Source: Dunaliella salina (Eukaryota; Chlorophyta; Chlorophyceae; Chlamydomonadales; Dunaliellaceae). Taken from it: DNA of 18,910 bases. Below, piece by piece: positions 502 to 18,869 of the stretch. The DNA is taken from assembly GCA_002284615.2 (NCBI GenBank), contig MU069513.1, forward strand, positions 72,284 through 91,193. The letters are read 5' to 3'. The position numbers were made by a program, and so were the translations under genes. How positions within the stretch are numbered: position 1 is the stretch's first letter; each line of letters begins with the position of its first letter. The notes under the pieces were generated by a model. That model was not told where the DNA came from. It did not search any database and was given only the letters and a program-made list of their open reading frames with translations.

Positions 502-849
502 TTACAGCAAAAACTTCATGATCATGCTCGTCAATGAGGCTTCCATCTCAACATCCACCTCACTCTCAGATGATAGGCTCCAGCCCTGGCAAGGCCACCT
601 TTGCTTCCATCTCAACATCCGCCTCACTCTCAGATGATAGGCTCCAGCCCTGGCAAGGCCACCTTTGAGGACAGAGCCAACAAGATTCAGACGATGCGGG
701 TTCCAGCTTACCTGGAGATGGCCTGCTGAAATCAAATACCGCCACGCATGGGCTCCAGACCTGGCAAGGGCACCTTTTAGGACTGGGGCAACGGATTTCA
801 GACGAGACGGGTGCCAGCTTTCCTAGAGATGCATTTTGTGTAAACCTGT
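502..849 (-). repeat. Degenerate copies of the 3' end of exon 859-1001
   Basis: The clearest copy is 712-760. It has the same length (49 nt) as the source segment 859-907 and keeps both a CCAG|GT acceptor-like edge and a CCAG|GTAAGC donor, but carries an in-frame TGA in the frame used by the source exon. It lies 147 bp from the source. Two more partial copies start at 649 and 585 (minus-strand reading GCCAG|GGCTGGAGCC). They are 64 bp apart and nearly identical over that unit. An open frame through the last copy (peptide SLSSESEVDVEMEAS, stop at 502-504) probably reflects the repeat and not a terminal exon. Confidence 0.6.
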
Positions 850-858
850 AGCCCTTAC

Positions 859-1001
859 CTGGAGATGGCTTGCTGAAATTGGAAATCGCCAGGCGTGGGC
901 TCCAGACCTGGCAGGGACAGGCTTGTGGGTAGAGGGCCCAGAGATGGGAGCCCCTTGGGGTCCAACTTGCCAGTGAGCGCAAAGGGGTCCGGCACTTGCT
1001 G
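859..1001 (-). CDS. Exon 10 of the minus-strand gene
   Basis: A 143-nt exon, phase 0 in and phase 2 out. The proposed acceptor is AAGGGGCAG|CAGCAAG, and the donor at 853-858 is CCAG|GTAAGG, close to consensus. The peptide starts QQVPDPFALTGKLDPKG and ends TPGDFQFQQAIS. It is Pro/Leu/Gly/Gln-rich, consistent with a disordered C-terminal region. The open frame continues upstream of the proposed acceptor, so the 5' edge could lie up to about 35 nt further out; GAAG|GGG is an alternative. A (CA)n tract in transcript sense begins about 35 nt upstream. The last 49 nt plus the donor are copied downstream in the intron. No family is recognised. Confidence 0.6.
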
Positions 1002-1033
1002 CTGCCCCTTCGCACCAGAAAGGCACAACACAG

Positions 1034-1035
<2 letters not shown>

Positions 1036-1115
<80 letters not shown>
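1036..1115. repeat. (TG)40 microsatellite
   Basis: An uninterrupted TG tract of 80 bp. It reads as CA in the minus-strand transcript and lies just upstream of the acceptor of exon 859-1001. Confidence 0.97.
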
Positions 1116-1117
<2 letters not shown>

Positions 1118-1576
1118 TTGCTGCTCACATGCTGCTCATACCCTCACCAGTGTCCGATTGCAGTTGGATGAGTGAAGAAGATGAAGTCAAAAAGGATGGT
1201 GTCCCCGGGGATGACTCTGTATTTTACCTGCAGCAGTACATTAGTGTTGCACGTGGTCCAGCTGTGTTGCAAGAGAGGGTTGCTGGTACCTTTTGCACAA
1301 AGTGAAGTCTAACGAGACTATGTGAGCAGCTTGCACATTTTAACAGGGTTCACGGGATAAACCATCAGTCACACAGTTTGACTGCTAGGCTGGCAATGAA
1401 GATGCAATAGAGTGCAAAATGAAAAAGCAGCTGGCTTAGTTGTTAAACTTGCATGCAGTCTGCCTGACTGCTTGTATTCCTAATCATAGTCCATGCTGCA
1501 CAGCAAAGATTTATGTGCACCTGCACCAACAATGCTTCTGGAGTTCTGCGCCTGGACATGCTCTCTCCTCTTGCAG

Positions 1577-1731
1577 GTTCCAAGGGTGGATGAGTGCCAA
1601 GACAGCATTGAGCTTGATGAAAAGCTGTGTTCAAATTGATAAGTTTCTCCTCTGCAGGTAACAAGGTACCCAAGCCTGAAGACCGAAATGCATTCCTGGT
1701 CATGACCCACAGAATCCACAAAGGCGCGTAA
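1577..1731 (+). other. Possible plus-strand exon pair or gene relic inside an intron
   Basis: Two coding-like blocks lie on the plus strand. The first follows CTCTCCTCTTGCAG (ending 1576) and reads VPRVDECQDSIELDEKL before a possible donor. The second follows TTTCTCCTCTGCAG (ending 1657) and, entered in phase 1, reads NKVPKPEDRNAFLVMTHRI...GA followed by TAA at 1729-1731. An acidic open stretch upstream (about 1167-1304, containing SEEDEVKKDGVPGDDS) could belong to the same unit. All of it sits in the intron between the minus-strand exons at 1962 and 1001. It could be a nested gene, a transposon relic or chance. No family is recognised. Confidence 0.25.
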
Positions 1732-1817
1732 ACCCTTCGCACAGTTGTAGGATCCCTTGCAAGTTTGGCACAATGCTCACTGGATCAATTAACATGCTTG
1801 CTCATCATTCATGTACA

Positions 1818-1850
1818 GGCACAACACTCACAAAACCTGTGAATGCTTGA
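1818..1850 (-). repeat. Copy of the 5' splice-site region of exon 1962-2126
   Basis: The minus strand reads ATTCACAG..TTT|GTGAGTGTTG here. The genuine junction 130 bp upstream in the transcript reads CTTCACAGACTCT|GTGAGTGTTT. The copy keeps a full GTGAGT donor. Confidence 0.55.
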
Positions 1851-1961
1851 GCGTGTTTCATGGACATGCATAACACAATATGAACCAGTAAATGTTTGGA
1901 AATCAATCACAAACAGGGCCGGCATTGTCACTGCTTCCTAGCTCATACTAAAAACACTCAC

Positions 1962-2126
1962 AGAGTCTGTGAAGGTGCGCGCATCGTTCACGTGGAGCGT
2001 GACTACTTGTTGGTTCCTGCTGAAACGCCAGCCACTGGTTTGCTCTGGGGAGTCCAGCAGGGCGTACCACCGCCCATTATTGTGGTACAGGTTGGTGTAC
2101 ATGCAGTGTGAATTATCACATTGCAT
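1962..2126 (-). CDS. Exon 9 of the minus-strand gene; possible GT61-like strand region
   Basis: A 165-nt exon (55 codons), phase 0 in and out. The acceptor is CACCCCTTGCAG|ATGCAA and the donor is GACTCT|GTGAGT. The peptide contains CMYTNLYHNNGRWYALLDSP, then WRFSRNQQVVTLHV. The N-x-G-R-W-Y pattern followed by short beta-strand-like segments weakly recalls GT61-type glycosyltransferases, but no catalytic motif is visible and this is resemblance only. Because the exon is symmetric (0-0), exon 3332-3486 would also join exon 859-1001 in frame without it. It could therefore be a cassette exon or part of another transcript. Both edges are copied in the flanking introns (2325-2395 and 1818-1850). 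Confidence 0.62.
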
Positions 2127-2324
2127 CTGCAAGGGGTGTAATGCGGGGCGCAGGCAAACATATTGCAGCTGAAACGGTTGAGGGTGAGAAGGCCTGGATG
2201 GTGTTGCTAAAGTTTAAATTGGTCTGAGCACAATGTAAGAGTAATCACAATGCCCTTGCAAAGGTGTGGTACTGCTCTTAAGCGCAAATGTGCAGCCACA
2301 GGAATTCAGAGCAAGCAGCCCCGC

Positions 2325-2395
2325 AAGACTATTGTTGCCATGCAAGTTGCAGTACACGCAGTGCAATGCATTATACTGCATCTGCAAGGGGAGCA
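2325..2395 (-). repeat. Copy of the 3' splice site and start of exon 1962-2126
   Basis: The minus strand reads CTCCCCTTGCAG|ATGCAGTATAATGC and continues into CACTGCGTGTACTGCAAC, matching the genuine CACCCCTTGCAG|ATGCAATGTGATAATTC and CACTGCATGTACACCAAC. The offset is 255 bp. The copy keeps a strong acceptor and about 55 nt of recognisable exon sequence. Confidence 0.65.
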
Positions 2396-2478
2396 ACATT
2401 GCACCAGGATGAAAACATGTCATTCGCAAGGTAAAAACAGGCAGAAAGCAAAGATACGGACATGCAGCCAAGGAGTAG

Positions 2479-2480
<2 letters not shown>

Positions 2481-2562
<82 letters not shown>

Positions 2563-2575
2563 NTGTGTGTGTGTG
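2481..2575. repeat. (TG)n microsatellite with an N
   Basis: About 95 bp of TG with one ambiguous base at 2563 and a phase slip there, which suggests assembly or base-calling uncertainty in tract length. It reads as CA in the transcript and lies 350 nt upstream of the acceptor of exon 1962-2126. Confidence 0.95.
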
Positions 2576-3119
2576 CAGCCATTACTTTCAACTCTGAGGG
2601 CAGTGACCGCAAAGTCATCAACCAATGTGCAAGTGTTGCACACAAACAATGCACGCAGTAGCACACTGGCGTGTGCAGATTTTTATACACATTGGCTCAA
2701 GGGAATATCAAGGGGGCGAGCTTGAGGTTTGCCGTGCAACCAAGGCTTCAAGGATGTGACATGCGGGTCCAGCACTCTTGCCGCAATTGTAAGGTTGCAA
2801 TGTAAGATTGCAACACATTGCTGGGGTTCAGCACTTCTTTAAGACTGCCATTGTAAAGAGGTCAAAACATGTGGGTGTGGCCATTAATGTCAGGCGTCAC
2901 TTGATTCATTTCCTTGATTTATTTCATGTATCGCTTCCCTTCGATTCGCAGAAGGCAAGCCCCATTGCCTCCCTGTCTTTGAACTAAAACAGCAGTGATT
3001 GCCTGTGTGTTTTGAAACCACACAAGCCACCACCTTTTCCTTTTCAGGGCATCCCTCAAGCCACCACGCCAGCTGAAACCATCTGGTCAAAGCACAAAGC
3101 ACACATTGAGCAACTATCC
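2576..3119. other. Intron sequence without a supported gene
   Basis: I find no convincing exon here. Small imperfect repeats around AAGGTTGCAATGTAAGATTG (2790-2820) and a pyrimidine-rich run ending CCTTTTCAG on the plus strand (3034-3046) are present, but no coding block with two splice sites follows. Confidence 0.5.
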
Positions 3120-3331
3120 CACGGAATGAGCCCAAATGAAAAGCCCACTTGCCAGTTATTGGGACAGATTCTGCTACAGGAGCAGAGGTGCATGCAACGA
3201 GTGTCCCAGGGAGGGATTGAGCCCAGGTGAGAAGCCCACTTACCGGTCATTGGCACAGATTATGTTGCAGGAGCAGAAGGTGCATGTAACGAGCTTCCCA
3301 GGGATTGAGCCCAGGTGAGAAGGCCACTTAC
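3120..3331 (-). repeat. Tandem copies of the 3' end and 5' splice site of exon 3332-3486
   Basis: Two extra copies of the exon tail plus donor lie at spacings of 88 and 91 bp. The donor edges in minus-strand reading are CCG|GTAAGTGGGC (3238-3243, a perfect donor) and CTG|GCAAGTGGGC (3147-3152, a GC-type donor). The genuine edge is CCG|GTAAGTGGCC (3326-3331). Each unit continues with TTCTCACCTGGGCTCAAT before the next copy of the glutamine-rich tail (CTCCTGCAACATAATCTGTG). Confidence 0.75.
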
Positions 3332-3486
3332 CGGCTGTTGGCACAGATTCTGCTGCAGCTGCAAGAGCAGTAGCTGTTGCTGCTGTTGCTGCTGTTGCTG
3401 TGTAGCGCTAGTGCCCTGCACACCGGACATGCCCACTCCAGCCCCCACGTCAAAGGGTGCCACACCTCCAAACAGCATCGGCAAGC
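3332..3486 (-). CDS. Exon 8 of the minus-strand gene, with poly-Gln run
   Basis: A 155-nt exon, phase 1 in and phase 0 out (51 codons). The acceptor is CTAATTGCAG|GC and the donor is CAGCCG|GTAAGT, both strong. The peptide begins LPMLFGGVAPFDVGAG, passes through GVQGTSAT and then nine consecutive Gln encoded by mixed CAG/CAA, followed by LLLLQLQQNLCQQP. Gly-rich then Gln/Leu-rich composition is typical of disordered regions of transcription factors or cofactors, which is an inference. The first codon is completed by the G left from exon 5143-5236 (Gly), giving ...SQDS-G-LPMLFGG. The tail and donor are reiterated downstream, and a diverged copy of the head lies at 4092-4140. Confidence 0.75.
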
Positions 3487-3764
3487 CTGCAATTAGTGCA
3501 AGATGCAGGTATCGTGGTCAGGATCGAGCATTACCGCAAGACTCCAAACTCCTTGAAAAGATAGAGGATCCTGGTGAAGACATGGAAGAATCTAATGATG
3601 ATACACGCGAGTGCAGACAGCCTCTTTGGCCTTGCCATGGCAAAGGAAGACATCAAGTTGTGAGCATGCACGGGTCTGCAATTTTGCACAGGCAGCAGTC
3701 TGTGGTGCACCTGTGTGGGTGACAGCGCGGCAAACAGCACACAGGCTCCAGTGGGGGCAGTTGA
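3487..3764. other. Intron with an acidic plus-strand open stretch
   Basis: On the plus strand 3530-3615 reads DSKLLEKIEDPGEDMEES followed by NDDTREC. This is protein-like in composition but has no convincing splice or start context. It could be a transposon relic or chance. Nothing else is supported. Confidence 0.25.
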
Positions 3765-4025
3765 TTGGCATTGATTGTTATTGGTTGGCAATTGGCATTG
3801 ATTGGCATTGATTGGCAATCAACCAACTTGGTTGGCAATTGGCAATTGGCATTAATCGGCATTGATTGGCAATCAACCAACTTGATTGGCAATTGGCAAT
3901 TGGCATTAATCGGCATTGATTGGCAATCAACCAACTTGATTGGCATATGGCAATTGGCATTGATTGGCATTGATTGGCAATCAACCAACTTGATTGGCAA
4001 TTGGCATGGATTGGCAATCAAACCA
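3765..4025. repeat. 54-bp tandem minisatellite (about 4.5 copies)
   Basis: Units start at ATTGGCAATCAACCAACTTG at 3811, 3865, 3919 and 3973 (exact 54-bp spacing), with a truncated unit at 4010. The unit is built from TTGGCAA/TTGCCAA words and is internally palindromic. Since 54 is divisible by three, both strands are open through it (WQLALIGIDWQSTNLIGN on the plus strand). I read this as a repeat artefact and not a protein. Confidence 0.9.
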
Positions 4026-4091
4026 GCTCTACTCATTTCAATCAAGTTTTGTCGAGAGAATCAAACGGCATCGGAAAATGACTACAGTAGA

Positions 4092-4140
4092 GGTGAGCAG
4101 AAAAGGCCCCATTCCTGCCGACAGCGTTGGCAAGCCCACG
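4092..4140 (-). repeat. Diverged copy of the start of exon 3332-3486
   Basis: The minus strand reads GGCTTGCCAACGCTGTCGGC then AGGAATGGGGCCTTTT. It is alignable without gaps to the exon start GGCTTGCCGATGCTGTTTGG then AGGTGTGGCACCCTTT (about two thirds identical; peptide GLPTLSAGMGPF against GLPMLFGGVAPF). The AG of the acceptor has been lost (CGTG|GGC). The offset is about 650 bp. Confidence 0.45.
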
Positions 4141-4195
4141 AGGCATGGCCCATTGGGAAGGGACATGCATACCGCCTCAGGCCTGGGTAAGCTTT

Positions 4196-4262
4196 TCCAT
4201 TCTTTCTTCATTCCTTTCTCTCCCTCCATTCTTCCTCTCTCTCTCCATTCCTTCTTTCTCAT
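4196..4262. repeat. CT-rich tract
   Basis: A pyrimidine-rich run (TTCCATTCTTTC...CTCTCTCTCCATTCC) on the plus strand, purine-rich in the transcript of the main gene. No gene is associated. Confidence 0.7.
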
Positions 4263-4319
4263 GACAAGGCACTGGCAATTGGAAATGGACTCATGGCAGT
4301 TGGGAATGGACTCATCCTC

Positions 4320-4384
4320 AGCCTGAGAGTGCGGGGGTGTCTCCACTACCGGAAGAGGCTCATCGAAGCTTGCAGAGCCGAGGC
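4320..4384 (-). other. Possible extra exon, unsupported at its 3' end
   Basis: After TTTCTTGGCAG on the minus strand, phase 1 reading gives LGSASFDEPLPVVETPPHSQ, which looks protein-like. Phase 1 entry would fit exon 5143-5236. I find no GT donor that restores phase 1 for exon 3332-3486, so I leave it out of the gene model. It may be another diverged copy of the 3486 exon edge. Confidence 0.25.
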
Positions 4385-5640: not shown

Positions 5641-5760
5641 CTGCGAGGAGTTGCTGGGCGAGGGCGGCTGCATGACGCCGGTAGGAGGGGAGCACATCGA
5701 GCTCACACCATTTGCATTTCCTGGCACAATGACTGAGGGCTGCGAGCCGCCAATCAGCTC
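5641..5760 (-). CDS. Exon 6 of the minus-strand gene
   Basis: A 120-nt exon (40 codons), phase 0 in and out. The acceptor is TTTGTGTGTTTGCAG|GAG and the donor is TCGCAG|GTTTGT. The peptide runs ELIGGSQPSVIVPGNANG, then SSMCSPPTGVMQ and PPSPSNSSQ. It is Ser/Pro/Gly-rich and likely disordered. The first ~46 nt plus the acceptor are duplicated twice immediately upstream at an exact 101-bp period. The genuine exon differs from both copies by having a CAG codon where they have TAG, which supports selection on this copy alone. Confidence 0.75.
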
Positions 5761-5990
5761 CTGCAAACACACAAATACATAGCAGCTGGACCTCATGCAC
5801 AGCAGTGCCCATGCGCATTTCCTGGCACAATGGCTGAGGGCTATGAACTGCCAATCAGCTCCTGCAAGCACACAAACACATAGCAGCTGGATCTCATGCA
5901 CAGCAGTGCCCATGCGCATTTCCTGGCACAATGACTGAGGGCTATGAACTGCCAATCAGCTCCTGCAAACACACAAACACATAGCAGCAG
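5761..5990 (-). repeat. Two upstream copies of the 3' splice site and start of exon 5641-5760
   Basis: Copies begin at 5861 and 5962 (period 101 bp). Each keeps TTTGTGTG(C/T)TTGCAG|GAGCTGATTGGC and the word CATTGTGCCAGGAAATGC. In both the seventh codon is TAG (E-L-I-G-S-S-stop) where the genuine exon has Gln. The acceptors look as strong as the genuine one. Confidence 0.85.
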
Positions 5991-6036
5991 GATCTCATGT
6001 GTAGCTCTTGCAACTGCAATTGCAAAACAGCTTTAC

Positions 6037-6162
6037 TTCACTCATAGCTCTCGCACCACAACTGGCCCCAGCAATCTAGCCTGCAGAGAGCAGCAGCACT
6101 TCACTCACACCTCCTGCACCACAACCGCCCCCAGCAATCCAGCCGGCAGAGCAGCCACATTT
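6037..6162. repeat. 62-bp tandem duplication
   Basis: Two copies start with CTTCACTCA at 6037 and 6099 and share ACCACAAC.G.CCCCAGCAATC. They lie upstream of the exon-6 copies in the same intron. I cannot tie them to an exon edge. Confidence 0.65.
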
Positions 6163-6399: not shown

Positions 6400-7071
6400 A
6401 TTCCAGCCAGGGTGCGCAGGCTGCATCTCCTGCACTAACCCCACCATCCACAGTACATGCCCGACCACCTCTGTTGCGCGCCCGACCATGCAGTTCGCAT
6501 GAGTGCCCAGCCAGGGTGCCCAGGCTGCACCCGCGCTGCACTCACCCCACCACATCCACAGTACGTGCTCCATCACCCATGTTACATTCCCTACCATACA
6601 CTCCGTCACTAGTGCACAGCCAGGGCGCCCAGGCTGCACCCGCGCTGCACTCACCCCACCACATCCACAGTACGTGCTCCATTACCCATGTTACACGCCC
6701 TGCCATACAATCCGTCACTAGTGCACAGCCAGGGCGCCCAGGTGGCGCCCAGTGCACTCACCCCGCCACATCCACAGTACACGCTCCACCACCCATGTTA
6801 CATTCCCTACCATGCAGTCCGTCACTAGTGCCCAGCCAGGGCGCCCAGGCTGCACCCGCGCTGCACTCACCCCACCACATCCACAGTACACGCTCCGCCA
6901 CGCATGTTACATTCCCTACCATACACTCCGTCACTAGTGCCCAGCCAGGGCGCCCAGGTGGTGCCCAGTGCACTCACCCCACCACATCCACAGTACACGC
7001 TCCACCAACCACGTTACATTCCCTACCATGCAGTCCGTCACCAATGCCCAGCCAGGGTGCCCGGGTTGCAC
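6400..7071 (-). repeat. 107/109-bp array seeded from the 3' end of exon 7072-7187
   Basis: The plus-strand marker GTGC(C/A)CAGCCAGGG recurs at 6503, 6612, 6721, 6828, 6937 and 7044 (spacing 109, 109, 107, 109, 107). In minus-strand reading each unit contains GG|GTGCAGCCTGGGC, matching the exon junction TGG|GTGCAACCCGGGC. Most units also carry a consensus-like G|GTGAGTG. The intron contains one donor-like site roughly every 50 nt. Confidence 0.8.
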
Positions 7072-7187
7072 CCATGCATGCTCCGCAGCAGTCCTCCAGG
7101 CTTTGAGCGTTTCGGCCGCCATGCCCTCTGGCTGGGTGAACACTTGCAGCACTGTCTGCATGCCCTGCTGCGTGCGCTGGAGCAGAC
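7072..7187 (-). CDS. Exon 5 of the minus-strand gene
   Basis: A 116-nt exon, phase 1 in and phase 0 out (38 codons). The acceptor is TTGTTCGTATGCCAG|GT. The donor is proposed as GCATGG|GTGCAA. The open frame continues beyond it, so ATG|GTAGGG (also phase 0) is an alternative 3' end. The peptide begins LLQRTQQGMQTVLQVFTQPE and continues to TLKAWRTAAEHAW, an amphipathic-helix-like segment. Phase 1 entry gives Gly after exon 9093-9120. The exon is flanked on both sides by arrays built from its own edges. The genuine acceptor (CCAG) is the best match among the five upstream copies. Confidence 0.62.
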
Positions 7188-7810
7188 CTGGCATACGAAC
7201 AAGAGGAGGGGGAGGAGGAAGGGTTGTGCATGCAAAATGCTTGAAGACAAACACACACTTGCAGCACAGTCTGCATGTCGTGCTGCATGCGCTGGAGCAG
7301 ACCTAGCATATGAACAATAAGAGGGGGAAGAGGAAGTGTAGTGCACACATTTTGATTGAAGACAAACGACTTGTGGCACATTCTGCATGCCCCACTGTGT
7401 TTGCAGGAGTAGACCCAGCATACAAACTAGAGGAAGGGAGGAGGAAATGTAGTGCAAAAATTTTGAAGACAGACAAACACTTGCAGCACAGTCTGCATGC
7501 CCTGTTGCGTACGCTGGAGCAGACTTAGCATAAGAACAAGAAGAGGGGGAAGAGGAAGTTTATGCACACATTTCGATTGAAGACAAACAATGAACTTGCA
7601 GCACAGTCTGCATGCCCTGCTGCGTGCGCTGGTGCAGACCTAGCATATCGAACAAGAGAAGGGGGAGGAAGAAGGGCATTGCACACATGAGATTAGGTTA
7701 TACCATGTATTGGTATTTTGATTGAAGACGAGCACTTGCAGCACAGTCTGCATACCCTGCTGCGCTAGAACAGACCGAGCATACAAACAAGAGGAAGGAG
7801 AAAAGGAAGG
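7188..7810 (-). repeat. Five upstream copies of the 3' splice site and start of exon 7072-7187
   Basis: Copies of the acceptor region and about 50 nt of exon (word CATGCAGACTGTGCTGCAAGT) have their junctions at 7302, 7414, 7524, 7639 and 7775; the genuine one is at 7187. The spacing is 110-136 bp. Junction words in order are CCAG|GT (genuine), CTAG|GT, CTGG|GT, CTAA|GT, CTAG|GT and CTCG|GT, so three of five copies have lost the AG. Each copy is preceded by a C/T-rich stretch (TCCTCTTCCCCCTCTT). Confidence 0.88.
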
Positions 7811-7904
7811 GTGGTGCACACATTTTGAGTGAAGACAGATGAGAGTAGACGTGCACACGGTCACAATTCTGTCTACTTACGCCCCAAGGATCTCAAAGGT
7901 ATCC

Positions 7905-8632
7905 CAGGGATGGGTAATACGCGGGTTCAGGAGGAGCCGTGCGCGTTCAAACTTATTAGACACTTGTATGAACCTAAAACATGCAATTTAAGAGGGCCAT
8001 TTGGGTCATGGGGTCCTAAGTGGTTGGGGCCCCCCGAGAGAGTCCCAACCAAGCACCAACCAACCCCCCTGGGCTCCTAGGGAAGTATACATTAAGCAAG
8101 CCCAAAGATAAGGGTCCGGATGATATAATGCCACAGTGGCAGAGAGATGCAGGAGGGGAGAGCAAGGGGATGACGCAAAAGGGGAGCACGTCCACAGCAA
8201 CAGCAAGCTTGCTGTTCTTAAGAGCAGACTGACTGCCAACACTGCCAGGGACCCCGTGTGGCTGTGCAGCGAGCTGCGCTTGCTCAAGCGCACCCAGGAC
8301 CTGGAGCAGTTTGGAAAGGTTCAGTCTTGGATGGCTGTGGATGAGGAGGAGGGGGAGGAGGAGGAGGAGGAGGAGGAGGAGGAGGAGGAGGAGGAGGTGG
8401 GGCAGGAGGGGTCAGCAGCGAGGGGGAGGAGTGGTTCACAGGGGATGAGGACAGTGCAGAGTTTGGGGCACATCAGCGAACATGGAACGAAAGGCCCAGG
8501 ACCGGCCTGCGAGGCACTGCCTGCCGGTATACTTTTGAAGTTTTGCAAACGGCCATTTTTAAGATACGCGTCTAAAATGTCAATTTTTTTCGATGCGTTA
8601 AATCAAGCGTTTTCACGTATGACCCATCCCTG
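7905..8632 (+). mobile_element. hAT-like non-autonomous DNA transposon
   Basis: Terminal inverted repeats start CAGGGATGGGTAATACG (left) and CAGGGATGGGTCATACG (right, reverse complement), 16/17 identical and then decaying. CAGGG ends are typical of hAT elements. The flanking 8-mers AGGTATCC and GTACATCC share only the last four bases, so the target duplication is degraded or absent. The element is 728 bp. Inside, the plus strand has an open stretch (8136-8672) with TANTARDPVWLCSELRLLKR, then QDLEQFGK, then a (GAG)n-encoded Glu run at 8341-8397. I do not recognise this as transposase; it may be captured coding sequence. Confidence 0.6.
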
Positions 8633-9092
8633 GTACATCCAGAAGTGCACTGAAACAATTTGGCACCAGTGACGAGATACGAACAAATGCTTGACACAAT
8701 GAACACAAAGCACTCCACAAGAGGGCACTAGCACACTGGCGCCCGCAGCAGTGGGGTGACATGCCCTTCTCAGGAGGGTTCATGTGCACCACACAGAAGG
8801 GTGCAACCTACAAAAGGCGTACTTTGCGCCACCTTCGGAGTGACTCGAAGGGGCGGTGCTCTTGCGCCCGGAGGTGCACGATGTGTGCCGTTGCGTGCTT
8901 TGTCTGTGGGCAACGCTCACAGACAAGTATCCAAGATGCGATCAAATACTCTGCATGCTAGAACACTCGCAAGAGCTCACCAGCACCAGCTTGGGCAGCT
9001 CCAGACTGTGACACTAGCGACCGCATTGCATTACGTAGCTCACTCATGTAAGGGCTTGTCCAAGCTCACTCACTATATCAAAGATCACTCAC
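8633..9092. other. Intron with a copy of the exon 9093-9120 tail
   Basis: At 9045-9068 the minus strand repeats GTGAGCTTGGACAAGCCCTTA of exon 9093-9120, but the donor has changed from TTAG|GTGAGTG to TTACATGAGTG. A further coding-like stretch at 8975-9000 (minus, LELPKLVL then GTGAGC) is probably a more diverged copy. The rest (8640-8960) has no supported gene. Confidence 0.4.
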
Positions 9093-9120
9093 CTAAGGGC
9101 TTGTCCAAGCTCACTTGTGC
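9093..9120 (-). CDS. Exon 4 of the minus-strand gene (28-nt microexon)
   Basis: Acceptor CTGCCCATGCAG|GCA, donor CTTAG|GTGAGT. It has nine codons, AQVSLDKPL, phase 0 in and phase 1 out. It is supported because it supplies exactly the phase change needed between exon 11494-11649 (ends phase 0) and exon 7072-7187 (starts phase 1), and because its tail is copied 46 bp downstream like those of the other exons. Such a short block is the least certain of the model. Confidence 0.42.
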
Positions 9121-9129
9121 CTGCATGGG

Positions 9130-9439: not shown

Positions 9440-9700
9440 ATAGAGCAGGTGCGTCAAATGCATTGCATGCACGTCCAGGCGTCACAACGTGCGCTGCTCC
9501 ACTGAGCAAACACATTTGCTAGTGCATGCAATGCGCACACAGCATGCATGCGATGCATACCCTTCGTGCCAATGCATCAGGCATGCAATGCATCGCACGA
9601 AGGGTATGCACTGCATGAAATGCAGCCATGCATTTCGTGACTGCATCAGGCATGCGATGCATTATCACGAAGGGTATGCACCGCATGAAATGCAGCCATC
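9440..9700. repeat. GCATGC/ATGCAT palindrome-rich block
   Basis: Dense, overlapping GCATGC, ATGCAT and TGCATGCA words, with a repeated phrase CGAAGGGTATGCA at 9599 and 9669 and GCATGAAATGCAG at 9612, 9682 and 9714. Local hairpins are possible. No coding evidence. Confidence 0.6.
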
Positions 9701-9930
9701 AAGAGTATGCATCGCATGAAATGCAGTCATCAAGAGTATGCACCACCTGCGGGTGCTATGCAGTCAGCAAGAGTATGCACCACCTGTGGGTGCTATGCAG
9801 TCAGTGAGAGTCTGCACCAACTGTGGGTGCTATGCAGTCATCAAGAGTTTGCACCACCTGTGGGTGCTATGCAGTCAGCAAGAGTATGCACCACGTGCGG
9901 GTGCTATGCAGTCAGCGAGAGTGCACACCG
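9699..9930. repeat. 37-bp tandem minisatellite
   Basis: Units built on GTATGCACCACCTGTGGGTG followed by CTATGCAGTCAGCAAGA start at 9736, 9773, 9810 and at 37-bp steps after that. In minus-strand reading each unit contains CACAG|GTGGTGC, an abutted AG|GT. No source exon is identified, so a link to the splice-junction arrays is unproven. Confidence 0.88.
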
Positions 9931-10345: not shown

Positions 10346-10350
10346 GTACA

Positions 10351-10506
10351 AAGGGATCGGCGTTGGCATAAAGCGCTATATAGCGTATAGCGCTAAATAG
10401 CGCTATATGCCGATCTATAGGTCGGTATAGTGCTATACTTAATTAACGATATAGCGCTATATAGTGCTTTAGGTTTTGCCCATATAGCGCTATATGCTGA
10501 TCTCTA
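10351..10506. mobile_element. 156-bp hAT-type MITE
   Basis: The flanking 8-mers are ACCGTACA (10343-10350) and ACCATACA (10507-10514), one transition apart, as expected for an old 8-bp hAT target duplication. Ends are AAGGGATCGGC and, reverse-complemented from the right, TAGAGATCAGC (8/11 identical). The interior is dominated by palindromic AGCGCTATAT words. It has no coding capacity. Confidence 0.6.
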
Positions 10507-10514
10507 ACCATACA

Positions 10515-10890: not shown

Positions 10891-10899
10891 GGGCAAACC

Positions 10900-11180
10900 G
10901 CCCCCCTTTGCGCATCATACATCCCATGTTGCGCATCATACATCGCATCCCATGTTGCGCTATCCCATGTTGCGCTATCCATGTTGCGTTATCATACATG
11001 CATACCATTACCGTTATCATACATGCGTGCCATGTTGCGCTATCCCATGTTGCGTTATCATACATCCCATGTTGCGCATCATACATCGCATCCCATCATA
11101 CATCCCATGTTGCGCGTCATACATCCCATGTTGCGTTACAACCTCACCATACATCCCATGTTGCGTTACAATCTCACGCA
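10900..11180. repeat. CATCCCATGTTGCG minisatellite
   Basis: About 15 irregular copies of (ATCATACATC)CCATGTTGCG with spacings of 15-40 bp. It lies directly downstream, in transcript order, of the array of exon 11494-11649 tail copies. No exon homology is seen. Confidence 0.85.
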
Positions 11181-11182
11181 CA

Positions 11183-11493
11183 CTTGCTTGCAGGCGCGCA
11201 CCAGGCCTTGAGACATGTTGGTGCCTCAAACAGCGTTGAGTTACGAAACATGCACAACTGCTTGCAGGCATACACCAGGCCTTCAGACATGTTGGCATCT
11301 CAAAATAGAGCGTGACGTTATAGAAATATGCACACTTGCTTGCAGGCGCGCACCAGGCCTTGAGAATGTCGGCATTAAAAAAAAAAAAAGTTACACTATA
11401 ACAACACACACACACCTGGTTGCAGACGCGCACCAGGCCCTGAGAAAAGTTGGCATCTCAAAATAGAGCGTGACGTTATAGAAACATGCACAC
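11183..11493 (-). repeat. Four copies of the 3' end and 5' splice site of exon 11494-11649
   Basis: Unit of about 74-80 bp. Minus-strand junctions are AAGCAG|GTGTGC (genuine, 11493), ACCAG|GTGTGTG (11415), AGCAA|GTGTGC (11335), AGCAG|TTGTGC (11257, GT lost) and AGCAA|GTGTGC (11183). Each copy keeps the exon-tail words CAAGGCCTGGTG and CGCCTGCA and is followed by TTTCTATAACGTCACGCTCT-like intron sequence in several units. A 13-A run interrupts the array at about 11377-11389. Confidence 0.88.
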
Positions 11494-11649
11494 CTGCTTG
11501 CAGGCGTACACCAGGCCTTGAGACATGTTGGCGTCGGCATACCACGCGCGGTGTGCCTGGTCGTCGTACACCACCCTCTCCAGCAGTATGTTGCGCAGGT
11601 ACACCCATTTGTGTTTGTGCTTGCCCTTCATGTTCAGCAGGTCCAGCAG
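11494..11649 (-). CDS. Exon 3 of the minus-strand gene
   Basis: A 156-nt exon (52 codons), phase 0 in and out. The acceptor is TCTTGCGTCTGCTGCAG|CTG and the donor is TGCAAGCAG|GTGTGC. The peptide begins LLDLLNMKGKHKHKWVYLRN, continues ILLERVVYDDQAHRAWYA and ends NMSQGLVYACKQ. It is a dense mixture of charged and aromatic residues with G/C third positions, the best-looking folded segment in the window. The family is not recognised. It is flanked on both sides by arrays of its own edges. The upstream array stays open in this frame, so the true 5' boundary could lie in any 72-bp step. Confidence 0.75.
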
Positions 11650-12350
11650 CTGCAGCAGACGCAAGAGTGGTGGGCACAAGCATAGTAGGTTCAACAGCTG
11701 CGTGTTTAGCAGGTCCAGCAGCTGGAGCAAAAGCAAGAGTAGTGGGCACAAGCATAGTAGGTTCAACAGCTGCGTGCTTATCAGGTCCAGCAGCTGGAGC
11801 AAAAGCAAGAGTCGTGGGTGCAAGTACTGTGGATTCAACAATTGTGTGTTCAGCAGATTCAGCAGCTGCAGCAGAGGCAGGAGTTGTGGGCACAAGCGTG
11901 GTGGCTTCAACAGCTGCATGTCCAGCAGGCCCAACAGCTGCAGCAGCCGCAAGAGTCGTGGGCACAAGCATAGTAGGCTCAACAGCTGCATATCTCGCAG
12001 GTTCATTTGCCGCTGCAGTCGTACAATTTGTGGGCACAAGCATTATAGGTTCAACAGCTGCACATTCAGCAGGTCCAACAGCTGCAGCAAAAACAAGAGT
12101 TGTGGGTACGTGTTCAGCAGGTTCAAGAGCTGCAACGGACACAAAGTTGTGGGCACAAGCACAGTGGCTTCAACATCTGCTTGTTCAGCAGCTGCAGCAG
12201 AAAAAAAGGTGTGTAAGGATGTCTTCTGCAAGTCAACCGGCTGCAGCAGAAACAAGAGTTGTGGGTATGCGTTCAGCAGGTCGAGCAGCTGCAGCAATGC
12301 GAGGGGTGGGCACCTATTGAGCAGCTACAGCAACTGCAACAGATAAGAGT
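11650..12350 (-). repeat. 72-bp array built from the 3' splice site and start of exon 11494-11649
   Basis: The plus-strand word (T/C)TCAA(C/G)A(G/A)(C/T)TG recurs at 11690, 11762, 11834, 11906, 11978, 12050 and 12122, exactly 72 bp apart with no indels. Each unit in minus-strand reading holds CTACTATG (branch-point-like), a C/T-rich stretch, and GCTG/CCAG|CTGCTGGACCTGCT, which matches the exon start. Since 72 = 24 codons, frames stay open on both strands: in exon frame LLDLLNTQLLNLLCLCP, in another minus frame VEPTMLVPTTLAFAPAAGP. Whether any unit is translated cannot be decided from sequence alone. Confidence 0.88.
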
Positions 12351-13296
12351 AGGGGGCATGTGTCCAGCACGGCGTGCTGACCCCACACCAAGAAATTGTC
12401 AGCAGGTCCCGCGTCTGCAGCAAGTTGAATTAAGGAAAATTAGACTGACTTGCCTTAATTCGACTTGCTGCGGGCACACAATCATACAGTCTGGTTTGCC
12501 TTGATTCAACTTGCAGTCTGATTTGCCTTCATTCAGCTTGCTGCAGGCACACAGTCACGCAGTCTGGTTTGCCTTGATTCAACTTGCAGTCTGATTTGTC
12601 TCAGTTTGAATTGCTGCAAGCACACGACCACGCAAGGGCAAGCCTGAAACACAAGGGCTGGTCTGCCTTAGTTCCACTTGCTGCAAGCACGCAATCATGA
12701 GGCCTTAAACATGAGCACTGATTTGCCCTAGTTCCACTTGCTGCAAGCACACTGTCATGCAAGGGTAAGCCTGAACCACGAGGGCTGGTTCGCCTCAATT
12801 CAACTTGCTGCAGGCACGCAATCATACAGTCTGGTTTGCCTTGATTCAACTTGCAGTCTGATTTGCCTTAATTCAGCTTGCTGCAGGCACACAGTCACGC
12901 AGTCTGGTTTGCCTTGATTCAACTTGCAGTCTGATTTGTCTCAGTTTGATTTGCTGCAAGCACACGACCACGCAAGGGCAAGCCCGAAACACAAGGGCTG
13001 GTCCGCTTTAGTTCCACTTGCTGCAAGCACGCAATCATGAGGCCTTAAACATGAGTAGGGTTCGCACAAACATTATAGTTATATATATATATAACGTTAT
13101 ATTTATAAGTATATAACCCGTATATTTAAGTTTGGATCTTGTTATGTTATACGTTATAAAGTTATACGTTATATATAACGTTATAAATAACGTTATATCA
13201 CGTCATACTCGAAGAAGTTCACACTGAAGTTTCACGATTTCGTGGTTGCAACCCTTTGAGTATCGTGACTGTGAGGTGCTCAGTCAAATTGATTAG

Positions 13297-13713
13297 GATG
13301 AGGAATTTGGAAGTGGTGCTGAGGCAGGTTTGGGTGACGAGGGAGAGGTGGAGGATGAAGAAGAAGAGGCCAGGGATGACAAGGAGAAATTTGAGGCGCA
13401 GGAAAGTGCAGCACAGCTTAGGCAGGCTAAGCTGAGCTCTATGTCCAGTGGTGGGAGAGTCTGCGCTGAGTATTGGGCACGTTTGAAGCCTGTGTTGATG
13501 AGGAAAGGCCCAGGCAAGCCTTTGCAGTGCAGGCTGGTGTGCAACAGGGGCGGGGAGGCAGTGTGTGGGAAGGACCTGGCCAGTGACAACCCTGCCAAGT
13601 CTGCCAGGGACCACTTCACCGTGTGGATGCAAGGGCCTACATGGAAGCAGGCCAAGCATCTCTGCGCGTTGAGCCTGGCAAGGAGCAGCAAGGGCAGCAG
13701 CAGCAGATGCTAG
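13297..13713 (+). pseudogene. Transposase-like N-terminal fragment in the hAT element
   Basis: An open stretch of 138 codons ends at TAG 13711-13713. It has no in-frame ATG and is preceded by AATTGATTAG, so it is either an exon or a truncated gene. It begins with an acidic run (GEVEDEEEEARDDKEKFE), then GGRVCAEYWARLKPVLMRKG, then LQCRLVCNRGGEAVCGKD and SARDHF. The Cys/His spacing loosely recalls the BED-type zinc finger found at the N-terminus of hAT transposases. The catalytic core and dimerisation region are absent, so the element would depend on a transposase in trans. Confidence 0.4.
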
Positions 13714-13951
13714 GCAAGCGCACTTTCACAGGGAGCTTTGTATAAGGATGTTTTATGCGCTTGGCGCAAACTCTGACTTTCAGACACTCTTTTTTAATCA
13801 CCATCTCATTTTTTGCTCAAAGTAAATTGGGTTAACGCCGTTAATAACGGTCTCTACTCATTGAGAGCTATCCAGTGATACCCTTGAAGTTGCGATTTGC
13901 TGAACTTGAAATCTGAGTATACAACGTATATAACATTTTTAACGTTATATA

Positions 13952-14545
13952 CCGTAGCGACACTAAGGGTTTTACGATTAATTAAATAATTATTGAGGCA
14001 TCTCGTAATATGGAGTGACTTTGAAAATTAATTTTTTTAAGGGCTCGTAAAAGATGCGGGTTTGTATCAAGCAATTAGTAAGGCTGCACAATGCAGCCAC
14101 ATGTCCCTAGGGACAAAGAACCTGTTTGACATGGAAGCTGCCAAGCATGCAAGATGTGGCAGCTAAGGCTGCTGCAGGTGTGGGGGAAGCAGGCAGGGGA
14201 AGCGTGCTTGGAGGAGCTTGCAGGTATTGTTCAGGAATTCATGGACCCCACTGCTCAGGGCGAGGGGACAGGCAGGGGCAGAGGGCTTCCACTGAGGAAA
14301 GCCTTCCACTGGAAGTTCCAGGAACAGATGAAGGGTCTGAGGTCATCACAGAATCCTCAAATGAAGAGATGGAAGAGGCGAGTAGAGACAATGAGCCCAT
14401 GTTGGAGACGCAAAAGCGCAGGGGTTCGCAAACTTTGACTTGTTTTGGCGGACCTCGTTTACCCATAATGCTCGCAAATTAATTAATGAAATTACTTTGG
14501 GACCTCGTAATAAATCAGTGTCGTAATACGATAGTGTCGCTACGG
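13952..14545. mobile_element. Possible nested inverted-repeat element within the hAT
   Basis: CCGTAGCGACACTA at 13952-13965 is perfectly inverted at 14532-14545. Each copy is flanked externally by TA and by AACGTTATA words, and CTCGTAA-like words recur just inside both ends. This fits either a nested TA-target element or internal structure of the hAT itself. The enclosed open frames (14126-14482, with TESSNEEMEEASRDNEPM) are not recognised. Confidence 0.4.
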
Positions 14546-15304
14546 TAACGTTATATAACGTGAAAACATTTCGCCACATAACGTTTGTGCGAACCCTGAA
14601 CATGAGCACTGATTTGCCTTAGTTCCACTTGCTGCAAGCACACTGTCATGCAAGGGCAAGCCTGAAACACGAGGGCTGGTTCGCCTCAATTCAACTTGCT
14701 GCAGGCACACAATCATACAGTCTGGTTGGCCTTGATTCAACTTGCAGTCTGATTTGCCTCAATCCAACTTGCTGCAAGCACACAGTCACGCAAGGGCAAG
14801 CCTGAAACACGAGGGCTGGTCTGCCTTGATTCATGAGGCCAAAAACATGAGCGCTGGTTTGCCTTAGTTCAACTTGCTGCTGGCAGACGATCATGCAAGG
14901 GCAAGCCTGAAAATGAGGGCTGGTCTGCCTTGATTCATGAGGCCAAAAACATGAGCGCTGGTTTGCCTCAATTCAACTTGCTGCTGGCAGACGATCATGC
15001 AAGGGCAAGCCTGAAAATGAGGGCTGGTCTGCTTTAATTCATGAGGCCTGAAACATTTGAGCGCTGGTTTGCCTCAATTTAACTTGCTGCAAGCACACAG
15101 TCACGCGAAGGTAAGCCTGACACAAGAAGGCTGGTTTGCTTTCATTTATGAGGCCTGAAGTATGAGCGCTGGTTGCCTCAATTCAACTCGCTCCTGGTAA
15201 ACGATCATGCAAGGGCAAGCCTGAAACGAGTGACTCGAACAAAGCGACGTAGTGCAGGCAACGGCCACGCCAGAGCGACGAAAAGATGTTTTGGATTTTG
15301 GATG

Positions 15305-15464
15305 TTTTGAACACATTTCAGCTTGTCTGTTATGCGTTCACTGCTCTCCCATTGATGCGGACCATGACATGCTGCTTTGGAAAAACAGTCAAAGCAGCAT
15401 GTCATGGTCCGCATTAACGCCAGAGCAGTGAACGCACAACAGACAAGCTGAAATGTGTTCAAAA
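15305..15464. ncRNA. Long near-perfect hairpin: candidate small-RNA precursor or foldback element
   Basis: Arms 15305-15379 and 15390-15464 are each 75 nt with a 10-nt loop (GAAAAACAGT) and 70 of 75 positions complementary. Four of the five mismatches cluster in one internal loop (left CCCATTG against right-arm complement GGCGTTA), leaving stems of about 43 and 25 bp. Long intronic hairpins of this kind feed Dicer in green algae (known for Chlamydomonas). It lies in the intron between exons 15600 and 11649 and could be processed from either strand. No target duplication is visible, so a foldback insertion is not excluded. Confidence 0.55.
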
Positions 15465-15599
15465 ACGCAGCTTGCCTAGGGATTGCTAGTTCCAGACATG
15501 AAAGCCACATGTCTCCATTTGCTTGTGGAAAGAAAGCTGAATACGGTGCATGTGTACGGCTTGACCATTTACAACTCTGCGCACGATGGAGGAGCCTAC

Positions 15600-15658
15600 C
15601 TTGTTCTCGACAGCCCGGTTCTGGTCCGCGTACAGAATCAAATGCTTCATCTGCTCCA
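15600..15658 (-). CDS. Exon 2 of the minus-strand gene
   Basis: A 59-nt exon, phase 1 in and phase 0 out. The acceptor is CACCTGCTGTTCTTGCAG|TG and the donor is GAGAACAAG|GTAGGC. The peptide EQMKHLILYADQNRAVENK has strong G/C third positions that stop at the donor. The first two bases join the G of exon 18707-18869 to make Val (GTG). The plus strand is also open here (YNSAHDGGAYLVLDSPVL), which lowers certainty. The minus strand is preferred for the pyrimidine-rich acceptor, codon bias and phase match on both sides. Confidence 0.6.
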
Positions 15659-16045
15659 CTGCAAGAACAGCAGGTGCAAAGATAAGGAGCTCACAAAGAG
15701 GGCAGAAGGTGCTTCATGTACGCCTTCAAAAGAACAGCAGGTGCAAAGGAAGTGGAGCTTACAGAAAAGGCAGGAGGTGCTTTACCTGGACGCAGGAAAA
15801 GGAGCTTACAAAAAGGACGGGTATTTTGTTGTGCTCTATTGCAAGGGCAGCTGGAGGGAGCGAGGAGGGGCCCACAGAAAGAACAGGAGGTGCTTCATCT
15901 TGCTCCAATGCACGGAGAGTGCAAAAAAGAAGGGGATCAATAACAGGACAGGACTGTGCTCCATGTTCTTCAAAAGGACGGCAGGTGCGAAGGAAAAAGA
16001 GCTTCAAAAAGAGCAGGGGGTGCTTCATTTTCACCGAAAATAGGG
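15659..16045 (-). repeat. Pyrimidine-rich array of 3' splice-site copies upstream of exon 15600-15658
   Basis: About six units of 48-70 bp. In minus-strand reading each has C/T-rich sequence with CTTTGCACCTGCTGTTCTT, an AG or decayed AG, and the exon-start word (A)TGAAGCACC, compared with TGAAGCATTTG in the genuine exon. Examples are TTGAAG|GCGTACATGAAGCACC and CATTGGAGCAAGATGAAGCACC. The genuine junction has the best acceptor (TTGCAG). The array makes the transcript almost purely pyrimidine for about 350 nt. Confidence 0.75.
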
Positions 16046-16428
16046 ATGACAAATCAGGAGATCATGTCAGCTTGAAATGAGCAGCTTCATTGGCAGGAGA
16101 TCCATCCGCATGAAAGGGAGAGCTTCTTCAGGAGGAAAGATGCGAAAAGAAAGACAAACCAACCATCTAATCATGGCTCTGCGAGAGCACCACCTCAAAC
16201 TCCATTTGGCCCGCTGTTGCAGCACCCCCCATCATCCTTTTGCACACTCGCCTAAGACAGAGCATTTGCTTCAGGGATGGCATTAATTGACAAGTGACTT
16301 TCTTTTGGAAACTTACAACCAAACGAAGCTTCCACACTGGCTCTGCACCTAAATGAAATAAAGTCAACGCTTGGTAGGAATGCCCACCTGAACGTCCAGA
16401 ACCACCTTTACCTTTTCGTCAATGAGTT
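16046..16428. other. Intron with weak minus-strand coding-like stretches
   Basis: Two minus-strand stretches look coding-like: QLIDEKVKVVLDVQ before CAG|GTGGGC (about 16396-16435) and MMGGAATAGQMEFEVVLSQ ending in a stop at 16167-16169. Neither fits the phase chain between exons 18707-18869 and 15600-15658, so I do not include them. Confidence 0.3.
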
Positions 16429-16671
16429 GACGCCCCTAGGCGTTTCGGCAGCTCAAAGGTGTCGGTTTGACACCAGAACGCGCACGATCCACGTGTCCCG
16501 CAATCCTCCTGATTCCCCTGATCCACTTGTCTCTGGTGATCAATCCTCTCCCAGTCCCTCCTGTCCCAATCCTCCTGATCCACCTGATCCACCTGTCCCT
16601 CAACCAACAGGGATCAGGCATTCTGGGGTGATACTGACACCTAATGAGCCGCCAAAGCGCCGAGGGGCGTC
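16429..16671. mobile_element. 243-bp inverted-repeat (MITE-like) element
   Basis: The arms at 16429-16481 and 16619-16671 are inverted copies, starting GACGCCCCTAGGCGTTTCGG and, reverse-complemented from the right, GACGCCCCTCGGCGCTTTGG. They continue through GCTCA..AGGTGTC.GT and CACCAGAA at roughly 75-80% identity. The core is C/T-rich (CCTGATCCACCTGTCC). I see no convincing target duplication, so the superfamily is unassigned. Confidence 0.6.
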
Positions 16672-17589
16672 GAAACCTGTGAGGCTGTAGCTCCTGGCCC
16701 CACCAGGTGTGCCTGTGCAATGCACACGCTTCAGCGCCTGTGCCACCCTTGCTGCACCTGGGGTGCTGCAAAACGCTCTTGGCCTCATTAGGTGTGTCTG
16801 AGTGATGCGCACGTGCTGCAGCACCTGTGCTGCCCTTGCCTTACCTATGGTTCTGAACGCCCCCCAGTGCACATGAGCAACGCGTCTATGCTGGAGTGAT
16901 TGTGGCACTCCTGCCGCACATGATGAAAAGGCTCTGGAGGGCACGTATGAGCCCAGGGGTGCCTGAGCAATGCACACGCTTCAGCGTCTGTGCCACCCTT
17001 GCTGCACCTGTGGTGCTGCAGCTGCTGGCCCCGCCAGGCGTGCCTGAAAAATGCACCTGGTGACGCACCCGCAAAACGCTCACCCATGGCGCTGCTGACA
17101 ATTTCCACAACAGGGCCCACCAGGTGCGCCTGAGCAATGCACCTGTTTGTGCACCTGCACAACGCTGACCAATGGTGGTGCACCCGCAAAACGCTGACCA
17201 GTGGTGGTGCACCCGCAAAACGCTGACCAGTGGTGGTGCACCCGCAAAACGCTTACCAGTGGTGGTGCACCCGCAAAACGCTTACCAGTGGTGATGTTGC
17301 TGCAGGGCGCGTCAGGGCCCAAGTGCGCAACGCATCCATTGATGCACCAGCAAAACAATGCTAACCAGTGGTGCTGCTGCTGACATGCACAACAGGGCCC
17401 AGGTGTGCCTGAGCAATGCACCTGTTTGTGCACCAGCACAATGCTTACCAGTGGTGGTGCACCCGCAAAACGCTTACCAGTGGTGATGCTGCTGCAGGGC
17501 GCCTCAGGGCCCAAGTGCGCAACGCATCCATGAATGCACCAGCGGGAGATTGCTTACCAGTGGTGCTGCTGCTGACGTGCACAACAGGG

Positions 17590-17880
17590 CCCACCAGGTG
17601 CGCCTGAGCAATGCACCTGTTTGTGCGCCCCCAAAACCAGAGCTGCTGCTTACCAGGGGTGGTACTGCGGAAGGGCGCGTCGGGGCCCACCAGGTGCGCC
17701 TGAGCAATGCACCTGTTTGTGCGCCCCCAAAACCAGAGCTGCTGCTTACCAGGGGTGGTACTGCTGAAGGGCGCGTCGGGGCCCACCAGGTGCGCCTGAG
17801 CAATGCACCTGTTTGTGCGCCCCCAAAACCAGAGCTGTAGCTTACCAGGGGTGGTACTGCGGAAGGGCGCGTCGGGGCCC
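17590..17880 (-). repeat. Homogenised 96-bp triplication within the exon-tail array
   Basis: The phrase CACCTGTTTGTGCGCCCCCA starts at 17614, 17710 and 17806, exactly 96 bp apart, with only a few substitutions. Each unit holds one complete pseudo-exon with acceptor and donor. Near-identity indicates recent amplification or gene conversion. Confidence 0.93.
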
Positions 17881-18054
17881 ACCGCGTGCGCCTGAGCAAT
17901 GCACCCATCGATGCACCCACCTTTGCATGCTCAGGCACCAATGCAGCATCGTGCACAATGCTGACCAGTGGTGATGCTGCTGAAGGGTGCGCATGTGCAC
18001 TCAGGTGCGTCACGGTTGCAAAGGGTGCTCAGAGCCCAGGGCCGCCCAAGGAAA

Positions 18055-18360
18055 GCACCTGTTGATGCATGATACCATGTTGATGCCCCCATGATGCCCC
18101 CATGATGCCCCATGATGCATGATGCCATGTTGATGCATGATGTCATGTTGATGCATGATGCCATGTTGGTGCCCCCATGATGCCCCCATGATGCCCCATG
18201 ATGCATGATGCCATGTTGATGCCCCCATGATACCCCCATGATGCATGATGCCATGTTGATGCATGATGCCCCCATGATGCCCCCATGATGCCAAGCAAGG
18301 CACCTGTTGATACATGATGCCCCCATGATGCATGATGCAGGATGCCCACAGCCCTATTGA
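18055..18360. repeat. ATGATGCCCCC/ATGATGCATG simple satellite
   Basis: Irregular alternation of CCCCCATGATG and GCATGATGCCATGTTGATG over 300 bp, inserted between units of the exon-tail array. Open frames of Met/His/Ile/Gly composition are artefacts. Confidence 0.93.
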
Positions 18361-18706
18361 TGTACACCCCTTACCAGTGGTGACATTGCTGAAGGGCACG
18401 TCAGGGCCCAAGTGAGCATGATAAGCAACGCACACGTCAATGCACCCACAGAACACCTGCCAGTGGTGAAGCACCCGCAAAACGCTCACCAGTGGTGATG
18501 CTGCTGAAGGGCGCGTCGGGGCCCAGGTGCGCCTAAGCAATGTATCCATTCATGCACCAGCAGAAAAATGCTTACCAGTGGCGATGCTGCCGAAGGGCAC
18601 ATCGGGGCCCAGGTGGGCCTGCGCATCACACCTATTGTTACACCTCCATCTTGCATCATCGCACGCATTCCTCAGGCACCAATGTAGCATCATGCACAAC
18701 GGTCAC

Positions 18707-18869
18707 CAGTGGTGATGCTGCTGAAGGGCGCGTCGGGGCCTAGGTGCGCCTGGATGTCACGCAGCCGCTGCGCAGTGATGTTGCCCACAAACTTGAGCTT
18801 GGTCAGCTCGTCCTTGTAGTGTGGGTACTCGCACTTGCGGTAGTCGGAGATGGCACGTTGGGTCTTGAC
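18707..18869 (-). CDS. Exon 1 in window of the minus-strand gene
   Basis: A 163-nt exon, phase 0 in and phase 1 out (54 codons). The acceptor is CATGCATGTGCAG|GTC, a few nt after a (CA)n tract, and the donor is ACCACTG|GTGACC, which is weak at positions +3 to +5. The peptide begins VKTQRAISDYRKCEYPHYKD, continues ELTKLKFVGNITAQRLRDIQ and ends APFSSITT. It is charged and helical-looking with GC-rich third positions. No family is recognised. Its last 43 nt, including an internal CCAG|GCGCACC that could act as an acceptor, seeded the 2-kb downstream array. The gene starts outside the window. Confidence 0.75.

Follow-up and report, generated by a model that had tools for sequence, protein, structure and literature searches.

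Why do the introns of a gene carry copy after copy of that gene's own splice junctions? The question is raised by an 18,910-nt stretch of the Dunaliella salina genome (contig MU069513.1; G000:C78:72284-91193), referred to here as the window, in which the edges of several exons, together with the adjoining splice sites, are reiterated in the neighboring introns. A preliminary description of the window held that the copied unit always spans a junction, which would make splice junctions a special target of duplication. Analysis of the window and of further loci of the same genome (285 Mb in 1,403 contigs) confirmed the copies but not the targeting. The arrays are very probably the product of ordinary tandem duplication of the minisatellite type, which is blind to splice junctions and is purged from exons by selection.

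To find copies, the 120-bp window at each junction was aligned with gaps to the sequence, at an E value of ≤0.05. Copies of an exon edge and its splice site in the adjoining intron are real and occur far above chance: no match was obtained at any of 2,706 points in third-order Markov simulations (12 loci), nor on the opposite strand at the 85 junctions of these loci. The copies in the window are local and direct, lie in gene orientation (minus strand) on the intron side, and are 71 to 92% identical to the junction. Homology supports six exons of the window (18869-18707, 15658-15600, 11649-11494, 3486-3332, 2126-1962, and 1227-1148) and, weakly, a seventh at 9120-9093. The other exons placed by the preliminary description were not supported: no homology was found in searches with those at 7187-7072, 5760, and 5143, and the one near 859 gave no convincing homology, just weak matches of 13 to 16 amino acids to protein P0021. 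A copy crossing the junction was found at 6 of 13 homology-supported junctions, or at 10 of 18 when the five unsupported edges (7187, 7072, 5760, 5143, and 859) are added. Among the exon tails said to be copied with their 5' splice sites, those at 18707, 11494, 7072, 5143 (a single crossing copy), 3332, and 859 (one crossing copy of 63 bp, reaching just 5 nt past the junction) bore this out; the tail at 1962 yielded just a 38-bp match at 71% identity, and that at 9093 gave no match in the gapped search and one neighboring copy (32/40 bases) in an ungapped scan. Copies of exon heads with their 3' splice sites were likewise recovered at 15658, 11649, 7187, 5760, and 2126 (one crossing copy of 66 bp at 71%), while the weak case at 3486 had no copy in the gapped search. 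The remaining copy numbers are given in Table 1. No copy of the tail of exon E2 was found.

For the tail of exon E1, the nearest copies lie at 18577, 18491, and 18376; at E ≤ 0.001, seven copies remain, and GT is present in all seven. The array units differ among exons, introns 1 to 3 included, and the units at the two ends of intron 1 are unrelated, in line with the earlier view that this is a repeated process and not one dispersed repeat. Exon and intron sequence are joined without a break in the copies. The template must therefore have been DNA or unspliced RNA, which excludes spliced RNA and excised introns; reverse-spliced intermediates, which had been suggested as a source, do not account for copies that carry exon tail and intron head as one contiguous sequence. 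With supported and unsupported edges pooled, the exon parts of copies are 82 to 83% identical to the junction and the intron parts 77 to 79%, and a higher identity of the exon parts is what a fixed functional copy would lead one to expect.

Duplication in the window is by no means confined to junctions. A local copy was present for 830 of 1,879 sampled 120-bp windows (44%; 48% outside an inserted transposon-like element), and the same sampling gave 15 to 39% in three other stretches of the contig and 1 to 41% in five other loci. Several arrays touch no junction at all, examples being those at 3785-4006, 9670-9922, 10908-11177, 12445-12625, 14749-15226, and 18060-18291. The copy unit thus does not always span a junction, and with so high a background of local copies, copied junctions are to be expected often.

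Junctions were compared with intron interiors in a sample of 105 junctions from 20 loci, comprising the window and 19 further short loci of this genome picked by matches to kinesin, dynein AAA_6, TCP-1, and E1-E2 (P-type) ATPase; 4 of 27 kinesin matches, 1 of 12 dynein, 1 of 12 TCP-1, and 1 of 5 ATPase matches were left out. The less certain placements include the first head of locus L035 and the tentative exon E4. Edges that were unclear or lay beyond the data were excluded from the counts; these were the heads of the first exons of L027, L028, L039, and L040 and of the second exon of L028, the tails of the last exons of L033 and L035 (the gene end, in the latter) and of the second exon of L037, and, within the window, the E1 head plus the five unsupported edges. 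The TCP-1-like gene of L037 has an apparent GC donor (GAG/GCAAGT) at the exon ending GATGCCGAG. Copied junctions are seen again in conserved genes of the genome, those for kinesin and dynein among them, and one intron of L027 (1,388 nt) holds its own donor in 11 copies, each of which has GT.

With stratification by locus, the intron-interior points (1,450/4,335) predict 27.9 junctions with a crossing copy; 28 of the 105 had one, an observed/expected ratio of 1.00 (95% bootstrap interval, 0.77 to 1.31); stricter cut-offs gave 1.00, 0.90, and 0.87. Donors (15/54) and acceptors (13/51) behaved alike. The counts were 10/37 junctions versus 224/733 interior points (31%) in the kinesin loci, 8/21 versus 203/627 (32%) in the dynein loci, and 6/13 versus 761/1,504 (51%) in the window. 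The idea that junctions are a special target of duplication is therefore not supported. A scan of junction windows against intron windows, proposed across the genome in the preliminary description as a test able to refute that idea, was run on a modest sample of 105 junctions and found them copied at the intron rate, and coverage does not rise toward junctions.

The distribution of copies around junctions was profiled in 32 introns and 39 exons of 12 loci. Copy coverage in introns was 0.28 at 0 to 50 nt from the nearest junction and 0.65 beyond 1,200 nt, with no peak at the junction. Coverage is higher far from junctions because the long introns are the repeat-rich ones (Spearman correlation of intron length with coverage, 0.64; P = 8e-5). 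Spread from junctions would make coverage fall with distance; since the opposite is seen, duplication does not nucleate there. In exons, coverage begins at the intron level and declines over about 60 nt, being 0.30, 0.26, 0.19, 0.10, 0.06, and 0.07 at 0 to 15, 15 to 30, 30 to 45, 45 to 60, 60 to 90, and 90 to 150 nt from the edge. Of 261 points inside exons and 60 nt or more from an edge, 10 had a crossing copy, all of them in locus L032. These coverage and exon-interior figures are those to be expected of blind duplication combined with selection on exons. Furthermore, all 68 crossing alignments, at 25 junctions, point outward to the intron side, and the nearest copy lies at 67 to 144 bp for 21 of 24 junctions.

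The observed copies, their density, the profile free of a junction peak, and the outward direction probably arose as follows. Tandem duplications would occur anywhere in the genes of this genome irrespective of splice junctions, with slippage or unequal exchange as the simplest source of the duplicating step; slippage-like duplication was among the sources envisaged earlier, and the data are compatible with it. A duplication inside an exon body would presumably be selected away, and one inside an intron would be neutral. One that spans a junction would be nearly neutral, because the exon body retains the copy attached to it, splice site included, and any additional copies land in the intron. 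The extra exon edges and splice sites would reiterate the edges outward and lengthen the introns, the free copies would decay neutrally, and correct splicing would proceed from the exon-attached copy, giving the shortest exon.

Several points weigh against this account. The sample of loci is not random, and junctions were placed by eye from the edges of homology matches, the reading frame, and GT/AG dinucleotides (with one GC). The bootstrap interval allows a modest enrichment at junctions, up to 1.3-fold. The splice dinucleotides of the copies are also retained more often than in matched intron controls, both for GT (0.77 versus 0.53, per-junction means; P = 0.012, 13 junctions) and for AG (0.85 versus 0.63, per-junction means; P = 0.025, 11 junctions). 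The room left by the interval, the 28 copied junctions, and a window striking to the eye could be accommodated by a hot spot, in which splice junctions give rise to duplications through R-loops, stalled replication, or repair, and these duplications then spread into the intron. Such a hot spot is nevertheless very improbable, as junctions are copied at the intron-interior rate, coverage near junctions is below that deep in introns, and several arrays touch no junction; it was rejected on the observed/expected ratio and the coverage profile. A further explanation, that the pattern is an assembly artifact or reflects wrongly placed exons, could draw on the four previously placed exons that lack convincing homology and on one pair of copies in L034 that is 97.5% identical. 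However, most copies diverge from the junction by 8 to 34%, unlike a misassembly of one sequence, and the pattern is repeated in conserved genes, which makes this explanation extremely unlikely.

The dinucleotide retention bears on a different alternative, namely, that the copies are decoys kept by selection for a function, either in splicing regulation or by adding in-frame protein repeats. Scoring was carried out for 65 copies at 24 junctions in 12 loci (L038 to L045 left out). GT or AG was kept in 54 of the 65 copies (83%), the best decoy equaled or outscored the exon-attached site at 14 of the 24 junctions, and the splice-site core was better conserved than the remainder of the unit at 16 of 24, all of which would suit functional decoys, as does the excess over matched controls. 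The retention is, however, close to the level expected when just one of the two copies mutates, a post hoc argument: with about 23% flank divergence and the functional copy fixed, about 78% retention is expected by our arithmetic, near the 83% seen. Because selection is argued to hold the reference copy, the excess was set aside as a sign of decoy function; on the one-copy argument alone, no selection for or against decoys is seen, and selection for decoy sites, another of the earlier suggestions, is not required. AG was moreover lost in all three copies of the E2 head and in three of five copies at 7187, and junction arrays are not in excess. At 8 of 11 heads (9 of 13 with two added), the distance upstream to the nearest decoy acceptor is divisible by 3, a spacing that would suit in-frame use, but the pattern is post hoc and small and is absent for donors (3 of 13 tails; 3 of 14 in the enlarged set). 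Of 54 lengths that decoy use would add, 28 are not multiples of three. The other 26 are divisible by 3, and 11 of them are open in at least one frame; open frames through decoy segments were discarded as uninformative because both strands of the array at 11629-12134 have several open frames. Collectively, function-driven retention of decoys appears highly unlikely.

As every crossing alignment lies on the intron side, the exon-attached site is the one that yields the shortest exon and the longest intron. It is predicted to be the normal site, being needed for a normal protein. A shortest-exon (exon-definition) rule may govern splicing here, with decoy acceptors sometimes used in frame, although we regard this as doubtful. 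Such a rule would differ from intron definition, which has been proposed for Volvox and Chlamydomonas; for the short introns of Volvox, intron definition is argued to be probable in PMC4378016. The arrays thus offer a natural series of decoys in which the choice among similar splice sites could be read from RNA, making exon versus intron definition testable. They also carry a warning for gene prediction, since at 14 of 85 junctions examined (12 loci) some copy equals or exceeds the exon-attached site in score.

Table 1. Exons, candidate exons, and junction-copy arrays of the window (copies counted at E ≤ 0.05)
Feature	Coordinates	Strand	Remarks
Exon E1 (KTQRAISDYRKCEYPHYKDELTKLKF...SSITT), donor G/GTGACC	18707..18869	-	70% identity to Tetrabaena socialis P0002
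Intron 1 array, E1 tail and donor copies, many GTAAGC	17149..18706	-	16 copies
Intron 1 end and E2 head copies	15659..16028	-	3 copies; acceptor AG lost in 3/3
Exon E2 (VEQMKHLILYADQNRAVENK)	15600..15658	-	Homology to P0002, P0003, P0005, P0015
Array of 72-bp units, intron 2 end and E3 head	11650..12422	-	11 copies, AG kept in 10
Exon E3 (LLDLLNMKGKHKHKWVYLRNILLERVVYDD...CKQ)	11494..11649	-	67% identity to P0002, 85% to P0004
Array of ~78-bp units, E3 tail and donor	11164..11493	-	4 copies, GT kept in 3
Tentative exon E4 (AQVSLDKPL), 28 nt, donor GTGAGT	9093..9120	-	Weak homology; short copy downstream (n = 1)
Array of ~115-bp units, copies of proposed head 7187	7188..7835	-	5 copies, AG kept in 2; exon without homology support
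109-bp array touching proposed tail 7072	6403..7071	-	3 copies; poor donor (score -8.4)
101-bp array with proposed exon head 5760 inside	5714..5999	-	2 further copies; exon without homology support
Exon GLPMLFGGVAPFDVG...LCQQP, donor GTAAGT	3332..3486	-	85% identity to P0021
88-bp array, tail of 3332 exon and donor	3117..3358	-	2 further copies, donors GTAAGT and GCAAGT
Second-gene exon (QCDNSHCMYTNLYHNNGRWYALL...)	1962..2126	-	P0019/P0020; one diverged head copy at 2382
Second gene, next exon (VKYRVIPGDTILFDFIFFTHPTAIGHW)	1148..1227	-	79% identity to P0019
Repeats around proposed tail 859	500..930	-	Candidate exon; weak P0021 matches

The genes of the window lie on the minus strand. When joined, the first exons placed by the preliminary description give a protein 67% identical over 70% of its length to the T. 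socialis hypothetical protein P0002, which points to a relative of the volvocine green algae, and the alignment continues across the proposed junctions ITT/VEQ and ENK/LLD and, weakly, across CKQ/AQV; in E4, AQVSLDKPL aligns end to end with GQINMDRPI of P0002 at 3 of 9 residues. The alignment of P0021 stops at LCQQP, the donor of the 3486-3332 exon. P0021 is filed in EukProt under Pelagomonas calceolata despite its 85% identity to this exon, and its source may be a green alga present in the P. calceolata sample. Since the exons at 2126-1962 and 1227-1148 match a different protein (P0019/P0020), the window holds at least two genes, the second including these exons. Upstream exons of the second gene are not recognizable in the window; it is possibly a fragment, or its first exons have diverged. 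Pfam gave no domain above cut-off in the joined exons or in the relatives P0002, P0014, P0019, and P0021, and Rfam gave nothing at gathering scores. The first gene may be CBP60-like and the second GT61 glycosyltransferase-like.

Other repeats accompany the arrays. An element with inverted ends (AGGGTTCGCACAAAC...) at 13058-14598 is inserted into the repeat array of intron 2, splitting the tandem array in two; it contains a 138-amino-acid open frame on the plus strand (13297-13713), possibly zinc-finger-like. A second stretch with inverted ends (CCCAGGGATGGGTAATACG ... CGTATGACCCATCCCTGG) at 7898-8640 is probably another DNA element. An AT-rich palindromic stretch of AGCGCTATATAGCG-like units occupies 10350-10510, and an imperfect long inverted repeat at 15330-15470 could form a hairpin. 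A search of the genome with positions 1 to 2000 of the window, covering this part only and skipping common words, gave five further matches of 53 to 65 bp.

How do these arrays compare with known systems? Their units of 72, 78, 88, 101, 109, and 115 bp, arranged head to tail with mismatches, fall within the range of intronic minisatellites (about 10 to 150 bp), and like boundary repeats they overlap coding exon edges together with the splice sites. None of the titles and abstract openings listed in searches of open-license PMC papers describes genome-wide junction copies, and the available parts of two papers on Chlamydomonas introns and repeats (PMC8226300 and PMC8633747) do not mention junction copies. 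The closest relatives are minisatellite tandem repeats that likewise lie across exon-intron boundaries in human genes and duplicate splice signals (PMC2812944). Of the genes lying in human segmental duplications, about 7% are affected, either within exons or at boundaries; the units measure about 30 bp, and there is RNA evidence for new introns. In contrast, about 27% of sampled junctions are involved here, the units are longer, and the arrays are known from sequence alone. Intron gain by tandem duplication, in which duplicated exonic sequence, or an intron-exon unit in potato, yields a new intron (PMC4974935 and PMC2891723; see also Hellsten 2011 and Zhuo 2007, cited in PMC4974935 and PMC2812944), similarly involves a local duplication that copies splice signals while the protein can stay intact. 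Here, however, existing introns acquire copies of their own edges, and the ends of intron 1 in the window carry units unrelated to each other. Introner elements also make up introns from repeated sequence, but they are families dispersed across many genes (PMC9860276), whereas the present units vary among exons. The arrays are thus a striking instance of an already known type of sequence change, differing from its relatives in their abundance and in the uptake by introns of their own edges, and they suggest that blind tandem duplication, in which splice junctions are copied too, makes the introns of this genome grow.

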